Below are positions 17,373 to 53,218 of a stretch of DNA of 64,000 nucleotides, piece by piece; position 1 is the stretch's first letter, and each line of letters starts with the position of its first letter. The notes under the pieces were generated by a model. That model ran no database searches. It was not told the origin of the DNA and worked only from the letters and a program-made list of their open reading frames with translations. This DNA is from Gossypium raimondii (Eukaryota > Streptophyta > Magnoliopsida > Malvales > Malvaceae): assembly GCF_025698545.1 (NCBI RefSeq), contig NC_068569.1, forward strand, positions 1,364,001-1,428,000, read 5' to 3'. A program made the translations under genes and the position numbers.

Positions 17373-17375
17373 TTA

Positions 17376-19797
17376 GGGTGTGTTTGTTTGCTGGAAAACA
17401 TTTTCCGGAAAATGTTTTCCTAATTTTACAGTGTTTGGGAGCCTGAAAACATTTTACACTTGGAAAATGTTTTCCAAAACACGGGTAAAATGGCCTCAAT
17501 TCAGGGAAAATGTCTTACCAATTTCAATTCCGTAAGACATTTTCCGGAAAATCCCTCCCTCCTTCCGACCTTCTCCTTCTTCAATCTATCTTCCCCTCAC
17601 GAATTTGCAGGATCTAAACGTCTCAAAGTTGGCCCATCGTCGATTTTGTAAGTATCCCCTTCTGTCTTCCCCTTCTGGTAGCTTGCAATTGGGAATTTTT
17701 ACAGTTCTTTTTGGTATCCCCTTCTATCTTCCAATATATGTCAACAAACAGTTGTTTGCAATTGGTTGAGACAACTTCAATTCCAACACCATGACTTCAA
17801 CTTCTTCATGTCTCGTCAGTTCCAAAATCCCTAATGTTAACCCTGGTCATAGTTTTTTTTTTTTTTACAAAGGAGGCCACAGTTTCTCGATGAAATTGCC
17901 ACTAATTCCATTCCAATTCACTGCTGTTAAGTGCCAATCATCCCTCGAATTTGCTCCATTTTACTTCAATTTCATCCATATTTATCGTACCAATCCATCC
18001 AAACATAAACTACTTGCCGTTCTTAAAGCCGCTGCCATGCTCCTTGAAAGCCATTGTGGTGCCTTCAATTTTTGTTTCCATCTCCTTTAAAAAATTTGAT
18101 GCTTTCCATATTGTGGTTGTCTTTAATTTAAAGCTGCTCTGTTTTTTATTAGTTCAAACCCCAATTTGTTGTTGCTTACTTGAATCGTGTTACAAGATGT
18201 TGCTTTGCTTCATTGCTAAGAGGTTAGTATCAATAAGGCTAGCTCCATATATTAATTATTTAGTCGAACGATGTTATGGTCAGTTTACATATATTAAAAC
18301 ATACATATATTAAAGAGTTATTCCGACTTTTGACATCTAGTCTTTTGCTGTATATTCTGAAACTATTTTGGTTATTTTTCAGTCGCCAAACGTGCGGGGT
18401 GGCTTCCTCAAGGTGATAGTTATCCCAAAGCTAGCCATGTTGGTTTTGACTTGTTCTTGGAGAAGATGGCAAGCGTTTTGAACCCGTAACAATCAAGTAG
18501 TTCATTTAGTTGATCTACTTGATGAAGCCAAGAACCAAGTAAAGCAAAGACTTATCGAGCATGGTATGATATTGAACCTTATCTCTGTTGTTACAAATGT
18601 TTTCAACTCTTTTCAACTACCTTATGTTTGTCGGTCTATTAGTGACGTATTTATTCTTGCAAGTCCTTACAGCTTGTTAAATTGTGTAGCCTTTGAACTT
18701 TTCAACCTCTTGTATCTGAAATTGTTACTTTGTGTGCGAATCGGTAAGGGTGAAGAATGGACCGAGGAGGAGATTGAGAGTATCATTGATGCAGATTGGT
18801 TATGGTCTTTGTAAAGTAAGCTACTTATTATTATATCAAGTTATTTATGTTAAATTAGTATTGCTATGATCTTCTCAGTAGTTCTTGTACTATTTTGTTT
18901 TCTTTTTAATATTCATTTTGTATATTCTAGATGTTTATGTTATGATCTTTTTATCTTGATTACTATAATTTAAAAATCCTTTTGGAATGTGTGTTTATTT
19001 TGCAGAAAGTAATTTGCAAGGAGCCTCAAGAGTCAAAGATTCCCCCATCTCTTCTTTTTAGTGATAAATTTTGATTTTCTTGATGCAGTCATGCCATTTA
19101 TACATTTCTGCGAAATTTTGAAGTTGTAATGAAGTTGTAAAATGGCTTGTGTTATTCAAGTTGTTGGTATTAAATTTTGGACTCTGAGTAATATTTGAAT
19201 CCGCTTTACTTTTGTTGATAGGATATTGAATCCTTTTTTTGAATCCATTTTGTTTTTGGGGATGACAGATTCTGATATACGAATTGATTAGCTACTTTAC
19301 TTTTTACAATTTTTTGACTTGCTAAATTCGGATATTTTGGCAGATTCAGATCTTTGGTCTGTTTGTTAATGCATATTCAGACCGAGTCACATAGATGTAG
19401 TTAGTTTTGCCTAAGTTTTTGAGGGACTTGGTTCTTATGTTCCCTTGCTCAATTTACAGATGAAGATGCATATGTTTTTCTGGTTAACTGGTTGGAAAGG
19501 TTTCCACAATACAAGCATAGAGATTTCTATATGTGGGTAATGGAAATTGAGTATTATTATAAATAAATCATTGCAATATATGTAAAAACAATTTCAAATA
19601 TAAAAAATTATTAATATATATTAATATAGGTAAAAACAACTTTTTCAAAAAGTATTTTTAGGAAATCTGCCAAACAGTAGAAAATATTTTACACAGATTC
19701 ATCAAAACACCAGAAAATATTTTCCAGTAAATCATTTTACTTTACAGAAAAGTAAAACATTTTCCATAAATTATTTTACTGGCAAACAAATGAACCC
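17376..19797 (+). mobile_element. Non-autonomous PIF/Harbinger-like element (2.4 kb) carrying host gene sequence
   Basis: The left end reads GGGTGTGTTTGTTTGCTGG and the right end, reverse-complemented, GGGTTCATTTGTTTGCCAG. Both are flanked directly by TTA (17373-17375 and 19798-19800), the 3-bp duplication of Harbinger/Tourist elements. Behind the tips both arms carry several ATTTTCC-type motifs (GGAAAACATTTTCCGG; AAAACATTTTCC). No transposase was recognised; the interior instead contains an arginyl-tRNA synthetase gene fragment with introns. That is the hallmark of Pack-type elements that capture genes at the DNA level. The terminal repeats and duplication are visible; the family name follows from them. 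Confidence 0.75.
18383..18818 (+). pseudogene. Captured fragment of an arginyl-tRNA synthetase gene
   Basis: After a TTTTTCAG acceptor the sequence at 18383-18563 reads AKRAGWLPQGDSYPKASHVG, then GF-LVLGEDGKRFEPVTIK-type sequence after a frame slip. A second slip leads to VVHLVDLLDEAKNQVKQRLIE and then a GTATGA donor. After a gap, 18746-18818 reads GKGEEWTEEEIES and then a frame-broken DA-GYG-VK. This is the catalytic-domain region of eukaryotic class I arginyl-tRNA synthetase (the AKRAGWLP ... SHVGFGLVLGEDGKRF ... LVDLLDEAK blocks). The frame is broken more than once, and the second acceptor is degraded. The retained intron shows capture from genomic DNA rather than from an mRNA. It cannot make a working synthetase. 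Confidence 0.8.
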
Positions 19798-19800
19798 TTA

Positions 19801-31878: not shown

Positions 31879-32562
31879 ATGGTGCAATCAAAGAAGTTTA
31901 GAGGTGTCAGGCAACGACACTGGGGTTCCTGGGTATCTGAAATTCGCCATCCGTTACTGTAAGTAAGCTTCAAGCTTTTTCTCAGTGTATTCAACATCGA
32001 TTTTCTTGTATCTTTTATGGTATATATATTTTGTTGCAGAAAGAGAAGGGTATGGCTTGGCACATTCGAAACAGCTGAAGAAGCAGCCCGAGCTTATGAC
32101 CAAGCAGCGATCTTAATGAGTGGGAGGAATGCAAAAACCAACTTCCCCCTATCACAAACAGCAAATGGAGACCCGGAAGGCAATGAAAGTTCCCATTCAT
32201 CATCACCTCCAAACGAACTATCTGAACTTCTCCATGCGAAGCTTAGAAAATGCAGCAAGGCACCGTCTCCTTCCATGACTTGTCTAAGGCTTGACACCGA
32301 GAATTCCCACATCGGGGTGTGGCAAAAGCGAGCAGGGAAGACCTCGGATTCCAATTGGGTAATGACTGTCCAGTTCGGAAAAGGGAATGCTCAAGCTTCC
32401 GCCAAGGGTTCCAATACCCAGGGACCCTCGGCTAGTAGCGAAGTGAGAGGAGAGATGGATGAAGAGGAGAGAATTGCACTACAAATGATAGAAGAGCTGC
32501 TTCATAGGAACTGTTCTTCTTCATTTGGTGTGGCAGAAGAGGAGGGTAACTTGTTTGTTTAG
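31879..32562 (+). CDS. AP2/ERF transcription factor of the SHINE/WIN clade, 2 exons
   Basis: Exons are 31879-31958 and 32040-32562 (603 nt, 200 aa) with a GT-AG intron of 81 bases. The protein begins [20 protein letters not shown] and continues [20 protein letters not shown]; the AP2 DNA-binding domain spans about residues 6-64 and ends [10 protein letters not shown]. The [15 protein letters not shown] wording and an intron cutting the AP2 domain just before KRR are characteristic of the SHN/WIN group. The middle region ([25 protein letters not shown]) and the acidic C terminus ([16 protein letters not shown]) also fit. Length is close to the 186-199 aa of the Arabidopsis members. Known members activate wax, cutin and cell-wall genes in the epidermis. 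Which of the SHN paralogues it is cannot be decided here. Confidence 0.93.
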
Positions 32563-46830: not shown

Positions 46831-47012
46831 CACGTGTCAGTACTTGAGTCGTTTATAGAATTAAATAATCCGAAAGAATACTGAGAAAAGATTTAAACAA
46901 AAGTAAAAAAGTAACCTCTCTTCTCTTCCGAAAGGAATATATAAAACCCAAAATATTTATCAAATAGAAAAAGAAACCGACGGATATTCTCACCACTTCC
47001 CTCCGAATATTC
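46831..47012 (+). promoter_or_regulatory. SPX gene promoter: G-box, TATA box and two PHR1-binding (P1BS) motifs
   Basis: A CACGTG G-box core lies at 46831-46836 and a TATATAAA box at 46938-46945. Two sites matching the P1BS consensus GNATATNC follow: GGATATTC at 46982-46989 and GAATATTC at 47005-47012. They sit 119-149 bases before the ATG and about 40-70 bases after the TATA box, so they may be at or just past the transcription start. P1BS sites in SPX1-type promoters bind PHR1-type factors and give phosphate-starvation induction; that role here is inferred. Confidence 0.7.
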
Positions 47013-47130
47013 TTCATTTTCAGTTATATTTACCCTTCTTCTCCCTCCCCCACCCCCTTCCTCCCGTTATCAGTCTCACCCCCGTTCCGTTCTCTCATTT
47101 TTCTCACTTACCGAGCACAGAGTTTTTGCC

Positions 47131-49559
47131 ATGAAATTCGGGAAGAGCCTCAGTAGCCAGATCGAGGAGACGTTGCCTGAATGGCGGGACAAGTTCCTTT
47201 CATATAAGGAGCTTAAGAAGAAAGTTAAGCTCATTCAACGTAACTCCGGTGAGAGACCGAATAAACGGCTTAGGCTGGATCAAAATTCTGGAGACGTTGT
47301 CTATGCTGGAGATAATGTCGGCGACGGAGACGGTATGTCGAGAGAGGAGACCGATTTTCTTAATCTGTTGGAAGATGAACTCGAGAAATTCAACACGTTT
47401 TTCGTTGAGAAAGAGGAAGAATACATCATTAGATTGAAGGTAATTACAACTCTGATTTGATTTCCATCTGTTTGATTGATTTGTAAGAAATTTCTCTTCT
47501 TTTCTTTCTCCTTTCCCGGTTCACAAGTAGAGATGTAAGATTTATTAACAGAGCCAAGACAAAACGACGTTTTGTTTAAATAATAGCAGATTTTCTTTCT
47601 TTTCTTTTGAAATTCTTTTTCCTTTCCGTAACGAGTCCGTTAAACTGTGTAAAACTTTTCTTGCTTGTCAAACTTGCGTGATAATTTCTTCTACAACCAT
47701 TGCACATATATTAAAGAATTGTTGAAAGTCATTTTTCTTGTAATGTATATATACTTGAAACGTAATTTAATTATAATTATTTACTTGCTTGGAATTCGTT
47801 GGATTACTGGAATAGAATATTTGAGGGATTAAGATTAGAAAGAACACTGTAAAACTTATTTGATTTAGTGAAGATTTGGTTACTTCGATTGCGATGTAAA
47901 GATTCCAAAGTTCCAGACGCAATGCTTTTTAATTTTATTCGTTGTGTAAAGATTATGCTTATTTGATGAGTCATTTTGGTTGGAGATGCAGGACTTACAA
48001 GACAACGTGGCAAAAGCAAAGGATTCTGATGAAAAGATGATAAAGATAAGGAAGGATATAGTGGACTTCCATGGCGAGATGGTTTTATTAGAAAATTATA
48101 GCGCCCTTAATTACACAGGTACTTATGCTTTTCTTATTCCCTACCTCTCTATTTTGTTTAATCAAATAAATATTTGCCACTTGCCTTGTTTCAATGATTT
48201 ACATATTTGATAGAACACCATTTTAGCCGGCCGAATGAGTTGTTTAGGGAAATTATTATTACGTTTTATAGCAACTTGCAAGCTCCTGTTCTAGGGAAAA
48301 TGACTTTATTCCGTGATCAAAAAGGAAAAAAAACTATTTTATCCTCCATGCTTTTCCTTTTGACATCAATATATTCTGCCAGACTACTTATCCACATCCA
48401 TTCTTCAATTAAACATTAAATGTTCACCATTTCTTTAAATGGCCCCGTTTCAGTGTAGTGGGAGCATTTGCTACAGCATGTGCTGCCACTATTATAGATT
48501 TATGCCAGTCTAGTTCTGAATTTCATTTCTCCCAACGGTTATATGGGAAAAATCTTTGGTGATGGTTTGTAATTCGCAAACGGAGTTACAAGTATTAAAA
48601 TATGCCCACTTTGATCATTTCTGTTCTATTTGACACAATACTTAGAATTCCCCATTGTTTCTTTTCAACCCATAAATAGAAAAATAATGCGCTTCAGCGT
48701 ACTCAAACTCACATCCTCCTGCATTGTCAATAATGCCCATATCAATCGAGCTATGACTCAATCGACTACCCTAGTTAATATTTGAAATTTAGTTTTCTTA
48801 TTTATTCTATTTTTTAAATTTAAAAATGTAAGTTTAGTTGTTAATCATATTAAAAATCCTTTAATAAATTTACGTTCATTACTACAATTTTTTTGTTACA
48901 TGCTTACAAAGTGATTTTTTTTAAATATAGCGAATTTAATAGAAAATTTTAGCTGGATTAACAATTAGATTTGAATTTTGTTATATGAAAAGTATAGATA
49001 TTAAATTTATGAAAATAAAAATGGAGTCAATTTCAAAAGTATAGTATTATACAAGAACTTGAAGCATATTTTAACCATAAGTTTGTAATTTTGAAAAGGA
49101 ACAAGACTATAATCGAAATAAACTCTAGTTATTTATTGGCAACTTTTGAATTATTTCTTAATGTATCAAGGGATAAATCATTAACACATTATGCAATGAA
49201 CAGGATTGGTGAAAATACTCAAGAAGTACGACAAAAGAACCGGTGCATTGATCCGCTCGCCTTTCATTCAAAGGGTGTTGCAACAACCCTTCTACGCCAC
49301 GGACTTGCTTTACAAGCTGGTGAAAGAGTGCGAGGCGATGCTGGAACACGTCTTCCCCAAGAAAGAAAAACCGGATTCAGTTGAAGCAAAGAATGTGGAG
49401 AGCTTATACATGAAAAGCACAATATCAGCATTGCGGGCATTGAAGGAAATCCGTAGTGGAAGCTCAACTGTTAGCGTTTTCTCATTGCCTCCGCTGCAAA
49501 GTAACGGATTGGAGGAGACATGGAAAATGATTCCCGTTCTGGAACAAGCAGCCAAGTAG
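47131..49559 (+). CDS. SPX domain protein of the SPX1/SPX2 type, 3 exons
   Basis: Exons are 47131-47439, 47992-48118 and 49204-49559 (309+127+356 = 792 nt, 263 aa), all with GT-AG introns and continuous frame. The protein starts MKFGKSLSSQIEETLPEWRD and contains an entire SPX domain (about residues 1-165): SYKELKKKVKLI, the acidic middle EEEYIIRLKDLQDN, YSALNYTGLVKILKKYDKRT, and ALIRSPFIQRVLQQPFYATDLL. Lys residues of the KILKKYDKR block form the inositol pyrophosphate pocket in this family. The C-terminal tail (SLYMKSTISALRALKEIRSG, then VFSLPPLQSNG) is typical of stand-alone SPX1/2 proteins, which in high phosphate bind PHR transcription factors and block them. No EXS, MFS or RING domain follows, which excludes PHO1, PHT5 and NLA types. 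Two P1BS motifs upstream suggest feedback control. Confidence 0.95.
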
Positions 49560-50386
49560 TTGAATTTGTGGTTCAAAATTATAATCTTATATTTTTGGGT
49601 CTTTACTTTTTAACTTCTCTAAATTTTCACACGCTTTTATAATGCAAGTCTTAGATACAAGTACTAACAAATGTAAATCCTATATTAATTGAAGGCACGG
49701 TTTGGTATAATCATCAATTATTGTTGAGATGTTTATATACTAATTAGTCGCTTATTCTTACGAGAGGTATCAGGAACGTGTTATTTCTGTAACATTTTAA
49801 GTTCCAATTGGATGGAAAATACTAGGGGATTAACAACTCGGTTAAGATCGACAAAACAAGATGTGATCAAATATCTTGACGAGAAAATCTTGAGAAATCA
49901 AAAAATATTCGAATCGAAGTATTTGGATTATGATAAAATGTTGCTATTATTTTATATGGACAATGAATATTATTTTATCCACTGGTACAAGAGATTCACT
50001 AAATGTCACGTGTTTGTTTTTAATATAATTTTATTTTTTAATATCACATTATGGTGTTTTTAATTCCAATATTTTTATATAAAAAGTATTTTTAAATATT
50101 ATATAAAATTTATTAATTATTTTTATTTACTCGAAATTAATATTAAAATCGAAAATCAAATTGATTCAAAAATTTCTATTAAACCCAACTCATCCTTAAG
50201 AGAAACAAAAGGAAATCGATTCGATTTGAAGTTTCGAAGCTTTCTAAACAAATATAATAATGCAATTTTTTTGGGATTTTAAAGAGAAATCCTTAGCTAA
50301 AATTGAAACTCAGGCAACACATTTGAGATTTGTACAATCATACAAATCTTTTATAAATTAAAAATTGTCCAACAATTCATCTTCGG
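49560..50386. other. 3' flank of the SPX gene and spacer
   Basis: The first 150 bases or so are the likely 3' UTR. The open frame at 49812-50063 has no recognisable domain. No other feature was seen. Confidence 0.4.
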
Positions 50387-50770
50387 AGGGGTATTTGGCA
50401 GGGTGACCCTCTTTCGCCGTATCTATTTCTTCTTTGTGCTGAGGGGTTTAGTTTTCTGCTTTGGCAAGCAGAGGCACGGGGAACTGTGCATTGTTTTGCA
50501 GTGTGTGGGACTGTGGACCATCAGTTTCTCATCTTTCACTTGTCGACGACAGTTTCTTTTTTTTTAGGGACACTCAGGAGGAAAGTCGGGCGGTGCGTCA
50601 TATTCTTTAAACTTACGAGCAGGCTATCAATTATAAAAAAATCTGGAGTTATGTTTAGTACTAATACTTCGTTGGCGGATAAGCAGTGTGTTCATTTTAT
50701 GCTGGGGGTGGACTCCCTTCTTTTATATGGGTCGTATCTAGGTTTTCCGTCACTAATTGGTAAGAATAAA
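50387..50770 (+). pseudogene. LINE reverse-transcriptase fragment, frameshifted
   Basis: It reads RGIWQGDPLSPYLFLLCAEG and then FSFLLWQAEARGTVH. A frame slip follows near the catalytic site, where an FVDDS version of the FADD box can be read with a frame change around 50540-50557. After another slip come KKSGVMFSTNTS and YLGFPSLIGKNK. These blocks, in this order, are those of plant non-LTR (LINE, L1-like) reverse transcriptases. Only about 130 residues of the domain remain, with at least two frame breaks, so it is dead. It stops 63 bases before the tRNA-Glu gene. Confidence 0.8.
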
Positions 50771-50833
50771 AATATTGAGGCTAAACTTCATATTTGTGAA
50801 GCTAAAAGTCGACATGATAAACCCAAAATTTAT

Positions 50834-50905
50834 TCCGTTGCCGGGACTTGAACCCGGGTCTCTCGGGTGAGAGCCGAGTATCCTAACCACCTAGACTACA
50901 ACGGA
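50834..50905 (-). tRNA. tRNA-Glu (CTC)
   Basis: The minus-strand sequence of 72 nt begins TCCGTTGTAGTCTAGGTGG and ends GGGTTCAAGTCCCGGCAACGG-A. The acceptor stem TCCGTTG/CAACGGA pairs fully. The anticodon stem CTCGG/CCGAG closes the loop CTCTCAC, with anticodon CTC (Glu). The T arm CCCGG-GTTCAAG-(T)CCCGG is normal, and A and B boxes are both intact. No intron. Confidence 0.95.
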
Positions 50906-51842: not shown

Positions 51843-53075
51843 ATGGGAGCTTTTTGGTTGGTTTTTATAGTAAACATAGTGATGGTTTCGTTAGTTCAGG
51901 GCCAGGGATCAGGTTTGCAGAATGGATTTTATTCATCTTCGTGTCCAAAGGCTGGAGCTGTTGTAAGGTCTACTGTTGAATCACACTTCAACAAAGATCC
52001 TACTATTGCTGCTGCCTTGCTTAGGCTCCATTTCCATGACTGCTTCGTTCAGGTTGCTCTGCTCTTCTCATTGAATTCTTGTATTGGAACTGATTAAATG
52101 GTGGATCACATGATTTTTTATGCAGGGTTGCGATGGCTCGGTGCTGATCTCCGGCTCTTCTGCCGAGAGAAGCGCGTTGCCGAACCTTGGATTACGAGGA
52201 TTCGAAGTCATTGATGATGCAAAAGCACTACTGGAATCTTTATGCCCTGGAGTCGTCTCGTGTGCTGATATATTAGCAGTGGCAGCTCGGGATGCCGTCG
52301 ACTTGGTAACATTCCTGCGCCCGCACACGTACACATATAGACATGACTTTAATTCAAAATACAGTGATCTCATTAATATGTTTCCATGTCAGAGTGATGG
52401 TCCAAGTTGGGCTGTTCCAACCGGAAGAAGGGATGGCAGGGTATCTTCGTCTTCTCAAACCTCAAGTTTACCGTCTCCACTCGAGTCCATTGCTGTTCAA
52501 AGGCAAAAATTTGCTGCAAAAGGCCTCAACGATCATGATCTTGTAACCTTAGTAGGTATACATATATATGTATATACATGTGTAAATAAATAATACACCA
52601 TCGCCTCTAAAATTCCAATGGTTCAATTACATGTTATGTTTACATGGCAGGGGCACATACCATAGGACAAACGGATTGCTTGTTCTTCCGGTACCGCCTA
52701 TACAACTTCACAACAACTGGAAGTGCTGATCCGACGATTAACCAATCTTTCTTAACACAACTACAATCTCTTTGTCCGAGAAACGGTGACGGCTCAAAAA
52801 AGGTTGGACTAGATATAGGTAGCGAGACGAAGTTTGATGTGAGCTTCTTCAAAAACGTCCGTGACGGCAAAGGAGTGTTGGAATCGGACCAGAGGCTTTG
52901 GGGAGATGATGGCACGCGTAGGGTAGTGGAAAACTATGCAGAGAACGTAAGAGGATTGTTGGGGTTAAGGTTTGATTATGAGTTCCGTAAAGCGATGATA
53001 AAGATGAGTAGCATTGAGGTGAAAACTGGTTCCGATGGAGAGATTAGGAAGACATGTTCAAAGATCAATAAGTGA
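51843..53075 (+). CDS. Class III secretory peroxidase, 4 exons
   Basis: Exons are 51843-52052, 52126-52305, 52393-52555 and 52651-53075 (978 nt, 325 aa), all GT-AG and in frame; the three introns fit the common plant peroxidase layout. A signal peptide is predicted at about 1-22 ([20 protein letters not shown]). Mature hallmarks follow in order: [15 protein letters not shown], the distal haem pocket [19 protein letters not shown] (distal His in HFHDC), [16 protein letters not shown], the proximal His motif [12 protein letters not shown], and a C-terminal half with [18 protein letters not shown]. The conserved cysteines and both haem histidines are present, so it should be active. It would oxidise phenolics with hydrogen peroxide in the wall or apoplast. 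I chose the ATG at 51843 because it starts directly before the signal peptide. The paralogue and physiological substrate cannot be assigned. Confidence 0.95.
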
Positions 53076-53136: not shown

Positions 53137-53218
53137 CGTCGCCTGAGAGATTCGAACTCTCGCGGGATGAACCCATGTACTTAGCAGGCACACGCCTTAA
53201 CCACTCGGCCAAAGCGAC
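53137..53218 (-). tRNA. tRNA-Ser (GCT)
   Basis: The minus-strand sequence of 82 nt begins GTCGCTTTGGCCGAGTGG and ends GAGAGTTCGAATCTCTCAGG-CGACG. The acceptor stem GTCGCTT/AGGCGAC pairs with one G-T. The anticodon is GCT in loop TGCTAAG. It has the long variable arm of class II tRNAs (GGG-TTCAT-CCC). A and B boxes are intact. It lies 61 bases past the peroxidase stop codon on the opposite strand. Confidence 0.95.

Follow-up and report, generated by a model that had tools for sequence, protein, structure and literature searches.

A Probable Pack-Type PIF/Harbinger Transposon of Gossypium raimondii with Cargo from About Five Host Loci

A 2422 bp stretch of Gossypium raimondii DNA is, with high confidence, a non-autonomous Pack-type transposon of the PIF/Harbinger superfamily, with cargo from about five host loci. 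It occupies positions 17376-19797 of the window, the 64,000-nucleotide segment that was analysed (C5:1364001-1428000, in an assembly of 750,779,957 bases and 281 contigs; the genes of the window are plant-type). Three features of Pack-TYPE elements were found: a six-frame Pfam scan of the element detected no transposase domain, its interior is derived from host genes, and the same tips enclose other interiors elsewhere in the genome. A sequence-only reading had proposed a 2.4 kb DNA element with TTA duplications and matching tips, and this description stands. It had also described the interior as part of an arginyl-tRNA synthetase (ArgRS) gene. Sequence from such a gene is indeed present, but it accounts for only 607 of the 2422 bp, and four other host-derived pieces had gone unnoticed. 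The interior is a mosaic, the parts of which are listed in Table 1.

Table 1. Parts of the element and its target-site duplications, in window coordinates
Feature	Position	Strand	Remarks
Target-site duplication TTA, left	17373-17375	.	
Left terminal/subterminal module: tip GGGTGTGTTTGTTTGC and repeats of GGAAAATGTTTTCC	17376-17546	+	
DUF789 gene, 3' end fragment	17731-17884	+	91% to L056; putative donor C3:58592919
Wall-associated-kinase-like gene, 3' flank, antisense	17894-18308	+	96% to L022, L023
ArgRS fragment, exons and introns	18311-18917	+	93% to L020, L021
ArgRS exon a	18383-18563	+	at least two 1-nt deletions absent from L010
Retained ArgRS intron, 180 nt	18564-18743	+	acceptor AG lost
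ArgRS exon b (next exon)	18744-18815	+	
Probable glycosyltransferase locus fragment	18902-19119	+	putative donor C11:1.29 or 1.32 Mb
Serine carboxypeptidase module	19191-19532	+	exon 19460-19532; 94-98% to four D copies
Right terminal/subterminal module	19545-19797	-	81-91% identity in C-type, D-type and tip-only copies
Target-site duplication TTA, right	19798-19800	.	

Ends of the element and superfamily placement

The terminal inverted repeats are imperfect, the tips GGGTGTGTTTGTTTGCT and (as reverse complement) GGGTTCATTTGTTTGCC being identical at 13 of 17 positions. A scan of the window for GGG tips with equal TTA/TAA flanks, at least 13/17 identity and a spacing of 200-6000 bp returned the 17376/19797 pair and no other. 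The same scan found a pair in 4 of 100 dinucleotide-shuffled windows, and the pair within the window, taken alone, is suggestive and not decisive. In a local alignment the two 160-bp ends scored 38, a value reached by 1 of 2000 shuffle pairs. The doubt over the tip pair is removed by copies elsewhere in the genome with matching TTA/TAA duplications. Such a duplication flanks every one of the 12 other fetched copies in which both ends were read (L010, L011, L012, L013, L025, L026, L027, L028, L029, L038, L040 and L041). Outside this count are L014/L015, which is split, L039 (right end unread), L048, which lacks its left end, the three copies L042, L043 and L045, in which the pattern matched no right end, and L055 (one end). 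The left tip of L039, before which there is no TTA or TAA, counts against the rule.

The left module is 72-81% identical to the corresponding part of B-type and D-type copies and of the tip-only copy L029 (the types are described below). Its subterminal word GGAAAATGTTTTCC, allowing at most one mismatch, occurs four times in the window, always within the element (0.11 expected); as the word was chosen from the element itself, this count shows a repeat and not a family. The exact subterminal pattern was unmatched among viral contigs.

Placement among the PIF/Harbinger elements, to which the sequence-only reading had assigned the element, is supported by the tips together with the TTA duplication. 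Both tips agree with the PIF/Harbinger tip pattern (GGGCCCGTTTGTTT or GGTCCTGTTTGTTTG), and the 3-bp TTA/TAA duplication by which these elements are also recognised is present. Over the first 14 bases, both tips match ZmPIFa at 11 positions, the best agreement among the seven published tips tabulated in PMC6327408. This level is reached by 3 of the 9658 TTA/TAA-adjacent 14-mers in the window, the element's own two tips included. Other published tips fit less well; with AtPIF2, for example, the right tip does no better than 1227 of the 9658 sites. The pattern TWAGGGTNCGTTTGTTTG, a tip adjoining TTA/TAA, occurs 109 times in the whole assembly (750.8 Mb), compared with two occurrences for the reversed control.

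Two other superfamilies were considered. MULEs and Pack-MULEs generate target duplications of about 9 bp, and the 9 bases on each side of the element and of L010 form no 9-bp direct repeat. The tips of CACTA and Pack-CACTA elements start with CACTA; those of this element start with GGG. Membership of either superfamily was rejected.

Several other features were noted in the window. Host exons encode an AP2 domain just under the curated cut-off (31963-32559), an SPX domain (46945-47457) and a peroxidase (52114-53072), and tRNA-Glu(ctc) and tRNA-Ser(gct) genes lie on the minus strand at 50833-50905 and 53137-53218. A frame at 50357-50848 resembles, by eye, a non-LTR retrotransposon reverse transcriptase; it has no Pfam match at E 0.001.

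Host-derived cargo

The ArgRS piece had been read from the letters as exons plus an intron with frameshifts, and genes that are 93% identical and have the same intron now bear this out. The closest are a tandem pair at C5:2.17 and 2.19 Mb, on the same contig as the element, and they supply the parental synthetase gene with the same intron that had been proposed as a check. A third ArgRS locus, at C8:61.83 Mb, is 78% identical. In tblastn searches a bacterial ArgRS query detected ArgRS exons in all three loci; in the window it matched three frame pieces at E 2e-5, compared with a best value of 1.6 in the reversed window. Alignment of gene and element runs through the same flanking intron, exon, intron and next exon. 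Because introns are retained, the captured sequence is genomic DNA and not a copy of an mRNA. A peptide joined by hand across the three frames matches PF00750 (E 3.3e-10) and solved ArgRS structures (best E 6.8e-6), the parental alignment being the stronger evidence; the single frame pieces on their own give weak family matches or none. NCBIfam returned no match for the joined piece, and otherwise two weak, unrelated matches.

An ArgRS-like stretch between transposon-like ends could in principle be a host gene that has decayed in place, with the ends arising by chance, and the imperfection of the tips and the yield of such pairs in shuffled windows would fit that explanation. It is refuted, to the point where we give it practically no credence, by L010, a 2649-bp copy on another contig that has this mosaic and these ends and lies inside a TTA duplication of its own; in addition, the ArgRS genes sit elsewhere. 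A host gene extending beyond 17376 or 19797 had been named as the observation that would overturn the element, and six-frame comparisons of the flanks, covering 4.4 kb on the left and 4.2 kb on the right, gave no match to the ArgRS or carboxypeptidase families at E<=1.

The captured ArgRS piece has decayed. Besides the deletions in exon a, the A of the intron acceptor AG has been removed by a 1-nt deletion in both A-type copies, the window element and L010. The decay followed capture, and part of it came after the split from the sister copy. A protein function of the piece is unlikely, given the frameshifts and the lost acceptor. Co-option at the RNA level, through a chimeric or antisense transcript regulating ArgRS or carboxypeptidase genes, might be suspected from the single orientation of the DUF789, ArgRS and carboxypeptidase pieces and from the retention of intron sequence. 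We consider it very improbable, as the frame is broken by 1-base deletions private to the window copy and the intron acceptor is lost. Most likely the element has no function beyond that of mobile cargo.

The remaining pieces come from other loci. The locus matching the DUF789 piece, L056, contains PF05623 at E 9.4e-18 in its best frame, and another frame reaches the end of the profile; within the element itself the match is weak (E 0.11 when the frames were scanned, 0.0023 for a trimmed piece). The putative donor of the kinase flank is a tandem pair at C3:1.83 and 1.84 Mb. In L022, kinase and galacturonan-binding GUB_WAK domains are encoded by an opposite-strand gene that adjoins the match. 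This stretch measures 636 bp in the C-type copy L040, where it runs into the last codons of the kinase, and 415 bp in the window element, where it lies wholly outside the kinase frame. A long open reading frame at 17770-18090 was considered as a gene and rejected; it has no Pfam match and spans DUF789-derived and kinase-flank DNA.

Beyond the A and B copies, the sequence at 18902-19119 is found with 94-95% identity at five places. Three of these are type E; the other two, L044 and L046 on C11, showed no tip when compared and appear to be the glycosyltransferase donor. A frame downstream in L044 gives glycosyltransferase matches that are all below curated cut-offs (best E 8.6e-5), and two further frames there gave no match; we tentatively take the L044 frames to be digalactosyldiacylglycerol synthase (DGD1-like). 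From its position between coding frames, the captured piece is probably intronic.

The exon in the carboxypeptidase module matches PF00450 at E 1.3e-5 and wheat serine carboxypeptidase II at E 9.3e-7, and the D-type copy L025 contains further carboxypeptidase sequence (E 3.4e-14 and 4.4e-5). The best candidate for its donor is C4:33389729-33390340, which is 85% identical to the window element over 187 bp; the segment 19191-19363 was unmatched in the 901 bp read at that locus. Judged by sequence similarity, four of the pieces (DUF789, kinase flank, ArgRS and glycosyltransferase) have putative donors away from the element, and the carboxypeptidase piece has a candidate donor. In three cases the donor is a pair of loci separated by 13-29 kb (C5:2172804/2188518, C3:1825369/1838395 and C11:1289654/1318816).

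Sister copies, candidate mobilising family and formation of the mosaic

A DNA search of the genome with the element gave at least 61 matches, with 40 of 1898 candidates scored, and all copy counts are accordingly lower bounds. Other interiors between the same tips, which had been suggested as a check on capture, were found in types B, C and D and in a tip-only copy of 617 bp (L029). Type A comprises the window element and L010 (on C11), which differ at 70 of 2399 aligned sites; about 216 bp kept in L010 have been lost from the window copy. Type B comprises L011, L012, L013 and the split L014/L015, with whole copies of 2788-2795 bp, and its left part differs from that of the window element. Type C (L038, L039, L040 and L041; 3.02-3.07 kb in copies read at both ends) combines the left 933 bp of the window element with another right part. 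Type D (L025-L028, about 2.9 kb) has only the ends and the carboxypeptidase module in common with it. Type E (L042, L043 and L045) shares the glycosyltransferase module and a left tip that is 84-85% identical to that of B-type L011; the type E left tips start with GGC after TTA or TAA, and the tip pattern detected no right end in these three copies.

Some further observations concern individual copies and tips. The B-type copy L014/L015 (C1:44653715-44665465) is interrupted at element position 1702-1706 by about 9 kb, with a 5-bp overlap that would be consistent with the nested insertion of an LTR retrotransposon. At C2:42809914-42812999, C4:45303197-45306300, C5:29157169-29160268 and C8:3863784-3867504, two tips face each other at a distance of 3.1-3.7 kb, and these pairs are probably further Pack or short Harbinger copies. 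A weak DIOX_N match in L028 (568-669, E 0.0019, below the cut-off) lies beside, not inside, the D-type copy and perhaps belongs to a neighbouring gene.

A candidate for the mobilising family came from a 149-residue frame in C-type L039, which has no PIF-specific Pfam match and at least 150 matches in the genome. We tentatively take it, partly from its position, to be the end of a Harbinger ORF1. Scoring covered 150 of 283 candidates for ORF1 and 150 of 1326 for the transposase. An ORF1-like match was found 2.9-5.9 kb downstream on the same strand at 21 of 100 listed tip sites (of 109 in total; 0.07 expected), and two controls, upstream and on the opposite strand, gave none. Similarly, among the 150 listed DDE_Tnp_4 matches, 27 are followed at 1.2-1.6 kb by an ORF1-like match downstream (0.03 expected), again with none in the two corresponding controls. 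A listed DDE_Tnp_4 match 1-8 kb downstream of a tip on the same strand was found at none of the 100 tips, and one within 8 kb in other arrangements at two. At C11:16663896-16666239, a tip points towards both an ORF1-like match and a DDE_Tnp_4 match within 1.8 kb (all within 2.4 kb), an arrangement that the right end of a complete Harbinger element should show; at one other tip, a transposase match lies 3.2 kb away, outside the tip. The partner family is very probably PIF/Harbinger, on the evidence of separate associations of tip, ORF1 and transposase and not of one complete element.

The duplications and tips suggest that a PIF/Harbinger transposase from a related family elsewhere would cut the element and insert it at TTA/TAA. 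Host DNA from about five loci would have been copied between the ends, most likely stepwise, by template switching during repair of the gap left after excision; we infer this gap-repair route of capture. The finished mosaic is present at a second site on another contig, in L010, with its own target duplication.

Comparison of the sub-families indicates that modules were exchanged or replaced between elements, as the window element shares its left junctions with one sub-family and its right junctions with another. Positions 1-933 of the element, with a junction near 519, are common to it and type C, while the junction at 933/936 and the modules to the right of it are common to it and type B. 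Over positions 1-518, the window element is 90.9-95.3% identical to type C; over 651-933, its identity is 98.2-99.6% with four B copies and 95.8-97.2% with four C copies.

Two histories may account for this pattern. The window element may be a recombinant that has a C-type left part and a B-type right part joined within the kinase-flank piece, as the distribution of the junctions and the closer match to B over 651-933 would imply. Such an origin predicts a higher identity to C on the left than over 651-933, and the reverse was observed. Sites 763 and 930 are changes common to A and B, and no change is common to A and C alone; position 799, where the three types agree with one another and differ from both donor copies, fits one single capture. 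Alternatively, a C-like element gained ArgRS sequence to give type A, the left end of which was later replaced to give type B, and this stepwise history fits the data as well or better. Judged from these alignments, single sites do not appear to decide between the two histories, and we regard the recombinant origin as tentative and rather doubtful.

A broader possibility, for which the chances seem to us somewhat short of even, is a Harbinger Pack exchange network in which the cargo of types C (kinase flank), D (carboxypeptidase) and E (glycosyltransferase fragment) is recombined, with the window element as a C-left/B-right recombinant. If such a network exists, genes would be shuffled between transposons as well as passed from gene to transposon.

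Relation to known systems and significance

Pack elements offer one way for plant genes to be broken into pieces and recombined, with MULEs as the best-known examples. PMC8903248 (Gisby and Catoni 2022), which starts from MULEs as the best-known Pack cases, documents Pack-PIF elements for maize and rice. It finds TTA/TAA duplications at most PIF elements and, mainly in maize, Pack elements that combine the DNA of several loci. The present element resembles these Pack-PIFs in its PIF-type tips, its TTA/TAA duplication, its captured coding DNA and its lack of an autonomous transposase; it differs in coming from another plant, and here five source pieces and junctions between sub-families were traced for one element. 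In grapevine, PIF elements (Pifvine-3) contain exons and introns of host genes, some in multiple copies (PMC2528002). These transduplications are alike in placing host exons and introns inside PIF elements, but in Pifvine-3 the captured DNA lies beside ORF1 and a transposase, whereas the window element has no transposase domain. Gene capture by Harbinger-type elements is therefore better documented than the sequence-only reading had assumed.

More distant parallels exist. Turmoil-1 of C. elegans is a Harbinger element with two captured coding sequences; unlike the window element, it belongs to an animal and has a transposase, and its captured parts lie within 760-bp terminal repeats (PMC2572040). 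Pack-MULE and Pack-CACTA elements likewise have tips that enclose pieces of unrelated genes and depend on a related transposase for their movement (PMC8903248, PMC13317346), but they belong to other superfamilies with other tips and target duplications. A review describes hybrid elements that arose from neighbouring Pack-CACTA copies (PMC13317346). In a literature search on Harbinger gene capture in Gossypium, none of the titles listed concerned the family of this element, which is not proof of absence; in a search by titles with the tip word and PIF, PePIF1 was the sole transposon paper among those listed, and a further search listed none.

The phenomenon itself is already known, and what is added is a dissected family with its donors and shared junctions. 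For annotation, an ArgRS-like or carboxypeptidase-like match at this locus is a warning, as it represents transposon cargo and not a gene. The element provides a dissected PIF/Harbinger case, with donors, junctions and sister copies, in a plant beyond maize, rice and grapevine, and the order of its captures is directly testable in related genomes.
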